Assembly: GCA_030426785.1 (NCBI GenBank)
Contig: JAUHXY010000015.1
Location: 1-33,475, forward strand
Reading direction: 5' to 3'
Origin: a bacterium
GTDB taxonomy: Bacteria > Planctomycetota > UBA1135 > GCA-002686595
DNA length: 33,475 nucleotides
Positions 11,660-28,247 of this stretch are shown here, piece after piece (position 1 is the first letter of the stretch; every line of letters starts with the position of its first letter). Under the pieces are notes generated by a model that worked only from the letters and a program-made list of their open reading frames with translations, was not told the DNA's origin and searched no databases. A program made the translations under genes and the position numbers.

Positions 11660-11735
11660 GGGGAAGTAGCTCAGTTGGTAGAGCGTCGCGTTCGCAATGC
11701 GAAGGTCGAGGGTTCAAGTCCCTTCTTCTCCACCA
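11660..11735 (+). tRNA. tRNA-Ala (anticodon CGC)
   Basis: This 76-nt cloverleaf reads GCG codons. The acceptor stem GGGGAAG/CTTCTCC contains the G3:U70 wobble pair that specifies alanine. The D-arm is GCTC/GAGC. The anticodon arm is TCGCG-TTCGCAA-TGCGA, with CGC at 11693-11695. The T-arm carries TTCAAGT. The discriminator base is A, and CCA is encoded (11733-11735). It converges on rnd. Confidence 0.97.
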
Positions 11736-13462: not shown

Positions 13463-13538
13463 GGCGAGGGCGACGGGACTTGAACCCGCAACCTCCGGCG
13501 TGACAGGCCGGCACTCTAACCAATTGAGCTACGCCCCC
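13462..13538 (-). tRNA. tRNA-Asp (anticodon GUC)
   Basis: This is a 77-nt cloverleaf on the minus strand. The acceptor stem GGGGGCG/CGCCCTC has one G:U pair. The D-arm is GCTC/GAGT. The anticodon arm CCGGC-CTGTCAC-GCCGG has GUC at 13504-13502. The T-arm is GCGGG-TTCAAGT-CCCGT. The discriminator is G73, as aspartate tRNAs require, and CCA is encoded. G34 makes it a substrate for queuosine modification, whose precursor is made by QueC encoded upstream on this strand. Confidence 0.97.
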
Positions 13539-27155: not shown

Positions 27156-28247
27156 ATGAAGATCGCCTCTCCGCTCCCCTGGGCCGCTACGGTAGCCCTG
27201 ATCGCGGCTTGTTCGAATCCGCAACAATCCGAACCCGTCGATCCGTTCGCAGACTTTCGGGGCGATGCGGGTGTCGCTCGAGCGGCGGTCACCCAGTGGG
27301 TGGAACGCGGGGAAGCCGCGATCCCCGAGCTGCAGGCCGGATTGCGCGAAGACAGCGCGAAAGTACAACGCTACTGCACCGAAGCGTTGGCCAAGATCAC
27401 CGGCCAATGGGGTTGGAACGACGGTTTGCTTTGGCAGCGCAGCGTGGAAGACGCCAAGGCGCTCGGCAAACCGATGATGGTCTTGCACCTGTTCGGCAAC
27501 TTCGACGAGGAGTTCTGCTGAGCCAACGGGAAACTCGCGAGAACCGTGACGTTCTCCACCCGCTCCGTCTGCGACGCCGTGCGCGAAACCTTCACCCCGG
27601 TTTGGGAAACGGTCTCCCCTACCACCGTGGCGGAGTTTCAACTCGATGAGGGCGAGTCGATCACCGGCACCATCGGCGGCGAGATCATGTTGTACTTCTG
27701 CCGTCCCGACGGAGTGGTCTTCGACGCGCTGCCCGCCTTGCAATCTCCCGGGGTGGTCAAACAAGCCATCGCACGCGCGTCGCGCTTTTGGAACGAATCC
27801 AACGGTGCGCCGGACGAAGCCATCCGCGAGTACAACGAGCGGCGCGTCGAACAAATCGGCTTGTCCCAAGGTTTGACGCCGGAGCGGGCGAAAGAACGCG
27901 TAGCCCGCGCGCACCGCGAGATGAATCGGCGCCTAGGTTCCGGCCCGCCGGCCACCGACGCGTTGACGACTTCCGCGTTTTCGAAGACCTTGATGGTCGC
28001 TCCGGCGGAAGACATCACCGTGGTAGAGCCGGGCGGGCTGTGGCTCTACGGCATGCAAGTGCACGACCAGTTGGCCAAAGGTGCGCTGCAAACCCCCATG
28101 CAGTGGAAGCACGTCATGTTCGAGGGCATCCTCGACCAGAAGCTGGGTGGTGGCCATCAGGTTTACGACCCCGATTCCCTGCAGCCCATGCAGGTGTTTC
28201 CGCCTTCGACTGGGGTGCAGGAAGCCGACTTAGGCGGCCACCGCTGA
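27156..28247 (+). CDS. Candidate selenoprotein: lipoprotein with thioredoxin-like core and in-frame TGA (Cys-Sec)
   Basis: I annotate one gene of 363 codons with TGA (27519-27521) at codon 122 read as selenocysteine. Upstream: a lipoprotein signal with lipobox IAAC (Cys19), a helical HEAT-like part (about 35-85), then KPMMVLHLFGNFDEEFC, which resembles the first strand and active-site loop of a thioredoxin fold. The TGA follows Cys121 directly, giving Cys-Sec. Downstream: ANGKLARTVTFSTRSVC and 200 more codons in the same frame, with the local codon style and no further stop until TGA at 28245. The only start in the second half, GTG at 27546, lies inside the hairpin loop and has no ribosome site. 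Alternatives are a pseudogene with a nonsense change, a sequencing error, or two genes. I do not recognise the family. Confidence 0.6.
27519..27562 (+). promoter_or_regulatory. bSECIS-like element after the in-frame TGA
   Basis: After the TGA, GAGAAC (27539-27544) pairs perfectly with GTTCTC (27551-27556) around the 6-nt loop CGUGAC. There are 23 nt between the TGA and the loop, inside the range reported for bacterial SECIS elements (16-37). The loop has G at its second base and contains GU, as SelB recognition needs. A lower stem CGGG/CCCG (27527-27530 with 27559-27562) could extend it across an internal loop. I folded it by eye, without energy values. Confidence 0.5.

Follow-up and report, generated by a model that had tools for sequence, protein, structure and literature searches.

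The window analysed here, a 33,475-nucleotide stretch of planctomycete DNA, contains on its forward strand a single frame of 363 residues at positions 27156–28247. The frame opens with an ATG, is interrupted at codon 122 by one TGA that directly follows a TGC codon (Cys121), and ends at a second TGA at positions 28245–28247 (Table 1). A preliminary description of the window had pointed out two same-phase frames split by one TGA, the second of them having coding character, and both points were upheld; GC content by codon position was 0.65/0.48/0.75 in the first half and 0.64/0.47/0.80 in the second, which amounts to the same coding profile. TGA was also found in normal use as a stop, ending 6 of 18 chosen genes of the window including the present one, in agreement with the earlier statement that the code is unchanged. 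The open second half by itself is weak evidence for one gene; at least 241 open codons follow 26 of the 609 TGA triplets in this GC-rich window. Two tRNA genes were located in the window using Rfam, at 11660–11732 (+) and 13465–13538 (−).

Table 1. Features of the selenoprotein locus, with the basis on which each was assigned.
Feature	Position	Strand	Description and basis
Whole gene, very probably of a selenoprotein	27156–28247	+	ATG, 121 codons, UGA (Sec122), 241 codons, TGA stop; homologues span the TGA
In-frame UGA, very probably read as selenocysteine (codon 122)	27519–27521	+	sel machinery, homologue column, covariance model
Predicted N-terminal export signal	27156–27215	+	Lipobox-like IAA-C (Cys19 at 27210–27212); by eye
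Helical N-terminal region, possibly HEAT-like	27267–27407	+	Residues 38–84; AlphaFold2 (AF2) helices, low pLDDT
Predicted thioredoxin-like domain	27417–27800	+	Residues 88–215, Sec122 starting the active-site helix; AF2 core model, Foldseek
Predicted bacterial SECIS	27539–27556	+	Stem GAGAAC (27539–27544) with GTTCTC (27551–27556), apical loop CGTGAC (27545–27550); rules, covariation, covariance model
C-terminal region	27816–28244	+	Aligns weakly with the (D)DPYLGLAP tail seen in relatives; A4 alignment, much of it at low pLDDT

Homology searches were performed with the protein joined across the TGA in order to evaluate the conservation of codon 122. The joined protein matched 10 of 61 related genomes, its own included, at 14 places, while the three further genomes of its genus (64–89% complete) gave no match. 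Exactly one TGA was present at 12 of the 14 places; the remaining two had no TGA, one being a Cys form and the other having Ile aligned at the column. A profile scan of genome contigs resulted in 18 confirmed loci, several of them lying on contigs from which loci had already been counted, and all 18 had a TGA at the equivalent codon. Because homology in this manner runs across the TGA, the reading as one gene is raised above chance. A profile built from eight members was then matched to 117 of 392 Planctomycetota genomes, not every match having a TGA, with up to five candidates scored per genome and 80 further stretches taken from among the matches listed.

A six-frame search of all collected loci with a core profile gave 132 domain rows, in which the U fell on model column 38 in 88 rows and on column 37, beside a one-column gap, in 19. 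Removal of identical 60-nt surroundings left 103 distinct members whose domain holds a single TGA, the window included, versus 11 distinct Cys members that form one subfamily with the motif SCAN. Where the end of the gene was included, a median of 234 open codons followed the TGA. Of the 18 leftover rows, five duplicated others and three were second fragments. Asp or Arg stood at the Sec column in three paralogues, three rows were CxxC thioredoxins, three were other weak matches, and one (L112, from genome G396, which had no SelA match) was a further Cys form. The Asp/Arg paralogues (L067, L088 and L097) belong to one family, f69, and seem to have lost the chalcogen; they are the exceptions to the pattern of TGA or Cys in homologues, for which the preliminary description had proposed looking. 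That description had also treated the gene as a single unfamiliar protein. Its reading as a selenoprotein stands, but the protein is one member of a large multi-paralogue family and not a lone oddity.

Seven of the fetched stretches (L065, L073, L081, L087, L089, L171 and L175) hold two TGA-bearing domains or genes of the superfamily each, which suggests tandem paralogues. A short xVExP(V/I)-like motif was observed in the linkers flanking the thioredoxin core in L135–L140, L145, L147 and L149–L152, with up to four copies per protein (L137); it was not found in the window protein, L141–L144 or L146. All-against-all comparison of the open reading frames around the 18 loci and the window showed no recognisable neighbour in common with the window among the clusters listed, which span three or more loci and include some antisense shadows. 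One cluster of reading frames lies upstream in 6 of the 19 loci compared. As many forks are open in the quick tree, no claim is made on the direction of change between Sec and Cys.

The same superfamily was encountered in what is probably a second phylum, where 5 of 149 genomes matched (G427, G560, G561, G563 and G565; L170–L179). Among the matches listed, 10 of 11 places held one TGA and one held TAA, and a hairpin similar to that described below was present at the TGA sites that were read. Genome G427 (L149) probably belongs to a phylum other than that of the window, because all listed genomes of its phylum were new.

The motif around the TGA in the window is EEFCUANG, so that Sec122 is followed by A-N-G with Gly125 at position +3. 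Across the 103 members the residue preceding Sec was C in 41, T in 33, L in 20, A in 3, S in 3, I in 2 and V in 1. At position +3 there were 59 G, 43 A and one unreadable residue, that is, Gly or Ala in all 102 readable members. A CxxC or UxxC redox pair, which is usual though not universal in the thioredoxin-like superfamily, was thus found neither in the window (U-A-N-G) nor in any of these 102. The Cys-Sec dipeptide to which attention had been drawn is real in the window gene but is not the conserved unit; since the preceding Cys is not conserved and there is no resolving Cys at +3, that unit is a lone Sec.

The genome from which the window derives is a metagenome-grade assembly of 4.02 Mb in 366 contigs, estimated at 85% completeness. 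All four components proposed as a check on recoding, selA, selB, selC and selD, were present in it. SelA was matched at 406.6 bits, the SelB wing domain at 61.2 bits within a frame of 636 residues, and tRNA-Sec at 75.4 bits versus a gathering score of 47, with a tca (UCA) anticodon according to ARAGORN. SelD was matched at 334.9 bits versus a cut-off of 125, and one contig carries tRNA-Sec, SelD and SelA together. As the SelD gene (G000:C143:14596-15531; L161, L167) has one in-frame TGA, it is probably itself a selenoprotein. The host genome also encodes a VPGUxxT protein (G000:C131:6173-7024; L155, L168), matched by NF041383 at 352.8 bits versus a cut-off of 275, with two in-frame TGA codons that read as VPGUSTC and MTUYWEG, the latter presumably an MsrA-like motif. 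SelA was found in 57 of the 61 genomes of the relatives set, host included, and, among the 59 genomes with TGA members that were tested, in 54. The five of these 59 in which it was not found were G219, G227, G266, G312 and G375, four of them less than 85% complete and one 91% complete. SelA was also matched, in some cases weakly, in 15 of 21 other tested genomes.

The region following the TGA was analysed for a SECIS hairpin. According to published rules for bacteria, as set out in a 2026 review (PMC13188914), such a hairpin lies 16–37 nt past the UGA and carries a G in the first two loop positions. The window hairpin falls within these rules, with 23 nt from the UGA to the loop, a CGUGAC loop and an MFE of −11.4. 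By simple folding the same was true of 90 of 102 Sec members, the other 12 failing, versus 1 of 11 Cys members. Stability was evaluated in 45-nt windows at 14 offsets from the UGA as z-scores against synonymous, protein-preserving codon shuffles. The clearest excess stability in Sec members was at offset 0 (mean z −0.53, se 0.08, n=101) and at +15 (−0.44, se 0.09, n=102), where the Cys members (n=11) gave +0.65 and +0.51. Among the other 12 offsets, +120 leaned towards stability (−0.26, se 0.10), while −15, +30 and +45 went in the opposite direction (+0.28 to +0.49).

Pairing of nucleotides 18–23 with 30–35 showed the largest excess over independence among 595 six-pair helices in 101 sequences. 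In 99 members, the window excluded, 83.0% of the cells in this helix were paired versus 71.3 (sd 0.9) after shuffling and covariation was 0.365 versus 0.192, neither value being reached in any of 500 shuffles; slid versions of the helix reached at most 63.6% paired and 0.252 covariation. Of the five covariation measures, two were no higher in these 99 members than in the shuffles, and RNAalifold returned no consensus structure for their alignment. The hairpin is accompanied by a rare Arg codon. Where codon +7 encodes Arg it was AGA or AGG in 75 of 97 Sec members, versus 57 of the 631 Arg codons in the vicinity within these genes; AGR occupied codon +7 in 1 of 11 Cys members.

A covariance model from which the window had been left out matched positions 27519–27569 at 41.3 bits (E 7e-8), the next best match in the window having 13.2 bits. 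Genome-wide, the window TGA was the best of 150 candidates scored out of 3909 over 4.0 Mb (E 8.8e-6), followed by a candidate at E 0.26. The two weak hits in the host genome (E 0.26 and 0.45) were translated and rejected, as they did not look like credible genes. Outside the training set, all 20 loci were hit at the TGA of the domain with E 0.076 or below; these loci represent at least 19 distinct 51-mers (L147 and L148 are alike) and have at most 45 of 51 letters in common with a training row. The model gave no hit at the Cys codon in any of 10 Cys loci, L037 having an unrelated hit at 0.057.

The product is probably exported and lipid-anchored, as predicted from its N-terminus, in which IAA-C19 resembles a lipobox by eye; several homologues likewise start with a hydrophobic or RRRFLQTS-type stretch. 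Modelling with AF2 from 18 sequences gave a pLDDT of 65.2 and a pTM of 0.61 for the whole protein, and 87.8 and 0.81 for the core alone. The HEAT repeat suggested in the preliminary description was not borne out; residues 38–84 are mostly helices in the model at block pLDDT 42–53, and a Pfam search at E 10 returned no HEAT family for the window protein. The placement of the TGA in a loop like the active site of thioredoxin agreed with the core model. Its best Foldseek match was DsbD-gamma (1vrs; E 4.5e-4, probability 1.00, TM by query 0.54), one of four at E ≤0.001, and SCO1-type copper chaperones were among the weaker ones. The whole-protein model had no Foldseek match at E 0.001 or below; its matches included 3f9u (E 2.2e-3), AGR2 (9i3u; E 2.9e-3) and 1sen (E 1.6e-2), with entries of AGR2, AGR3 and TXNDC12 type. 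In the model, Sec122 directly precedes a helix that starts at residue 123. Profile searches of the PDB gave weak thioredoxin-like matches with the A2 profile (2lst, E 0.067) and no useful match with the A4 profile, and Pfam Thioredoxin_7 matched 3 of 10 diverse members (best E 0.015). The domain is accordingly modelled as a thioredoxin-like fold resembling DsbD-gamma and AGR2, with Sec predicted where the nucleophilic Cys would stand.

The nearest known family appears to be that of the VPGUxxT thioredoxin-like selenoproteins (NF041382/NF041383, hypothetical protein OS_HP5), to which the window protein is only distantly related as judged by sequence profiles. In these, too, Sec fills the first active-site position of a thioredoxin-like domain. 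Alignment by hhalign to six VPGUxxT-type N-domains, drawn from strong and weak NF041383 matches, gave E 2.9e-7 (probability 93) and E 8.5e-9 (probability 96), and placed Sec122 on their U or Cys and Gly125 on their +3 Cys. VPGUSTC of the host protein, however, keeps the +3 Cys and runs on to a second TGA, whereas the family of the window has Gly or Ala at +3; the window protein also lacks VPG, has an insertion before Sec (LLGRLDEEFC) and differs in its flanking regions. NF041383 did not match the window protein at E 10, matched 2 of 10 diverse members (best E 0.0052) and gave 25 bits, versus its cut-off of 275, at the place of one member in G104. Thioredoxin_7, DsbD-gamma and the AGR2-AGR3-TXNDC12 proteins are alike in fold, but the family of the window is without the Cys pair, with Sec standing where the first Cys would be.

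Selenoproteins with a CU motif listed in the review, namely Csac_0668, SaoL, HgcA, SaoC, MbdU and KCU-star (PMC13188914), share Cys-Sec as written but are other families by the domain assignments given there. None of the NCBIfam models of these families matched the window protein or ten diverse members, and in NCBIfam 20.0 as a whole the window protein had no match at E 10 and the ten members nothing better than E 0.005. None of the 119 families in Table 1 of the review was recognisable as the present one by name, motif or domain (PMC13188914). The section on Planctomycetes selenoproteins in the main text of PMC4807772 does not list the family, and no paper recognisably about it was met among those listed, as judged by titles or opening lines of abstracts. 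The window gene hence belongs to a large, apparently uncatalogued family of predicted exported, Sec-containing thioredoxin-like proteins.

The gene at 27156–28247 is very probably a single selenoprotein gene whose exported thioredoxin-like product would receive Sec at codon 122 through SelB and Sec-tRNA(UCA), directed by a SECIS stem that starts 18 nt after the UGA. Were the TGA instead a true stop, a 121-residue product or a decaying pseudogene would be left. TGA is indeed an ordinary stop in the host genome, and open stretches like the second half are not rare in DNA of this GC content (26 of 609), but 103 diverged members share the place of the TGA and keep the frame open beyond it (median 234 codons where the end of the gene was included), the SECIS hairpin is present and one subfamily has Cys, all of which makes termination highly improbable. 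An error of sequencing or assembly could be suspected in a metagenome-grade assembly of 366 contigs; the equivalent TGA recurs, however, in loci from many assemblies, and with more than 100 distinct loci having it at the same place the likelihood of a base error is negligible. The chance that the UGA is read as Trp or by a near-cognate tRNA through a changed code or a suppressor, for which no evidence was found, is just as minute, given that TGA terminates 6 of 18 chosen genes of the window, that the close subfamily has Cys as its sense residue and that both the sel machinery and a SECIS are at hand.

The role of Sec122 is a separate matter. A Sec that serves as a metal or metalloid ligand or as a structural residue, and not as a redox nucleophile, would fit the lack of a resolving Cys at +3 in all 102 readable members and the SCO1-type copper chaperones among the weaker fold matches, and the review raises metal binding as a possible role of Sec in some newly discovered families (PMC13188914). 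The start of the active-site helix is nevertheless the classical place of the nucleophile, and no conserved second ligand was noticed in the course of the analysis, so that a ligand or structural role is considered unlikely. A redox role for Sec122 is predicted as the likelier function; one-selenol redox chemistry is suggested because the thioredoxin fold is combined with a missing second Cys. Judging from sequence, profile alignment and model, Sec122 would stand where CxxC has its first Cys, at the N-terminal end of the active-site helix, with Gly instead of the second Cys. The product would then be an extracytoplasmic one-selenol oxidoreductase in which Sec attacks a peroxide or disulfide, giving a selenenyl intermediate. 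In C-U members, including that of the window, this intermediate would be resolved by the preceding Cys, making Cys121 a possible resolving partner, while in T-U and L-U members an external thiol or a partner protein would resolve it.

On balance we favour a wider interpretation in which the gene belongs to a superfamily of exported proteins that extends across the phylum, comprises multiple paralogues and combines a thioredoxin fold with a lone Sec, mostly in the form [C/T/L]-U-x-x-[G/A] and with five or more genes in some genomes. These would constitute a hidden selenoproteome of many Planctomycetota, split at the UGA by gene finders, and a distinct one-selenol extracytoplasmic redox system that is also present in a second phylum. 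According to the review, selenoprotein searches depend for the most part on Cys/Sec pairs within families already known (PMC13188914). As most of the collected members carry a TGA, annotation pipelines would probably see them as truncated fragments. If this interpretation is correct, the SECIS model may be used to find further members, and the superfamily would offer a testable case for the role of Sec in the absence of a resolving Cys. The Planctomycetota, better known for their odd cell biology, would then own a large, uncatalogued Sec-dependent extracytoplasmic system built on a thioredoxin fold without the second thiol.
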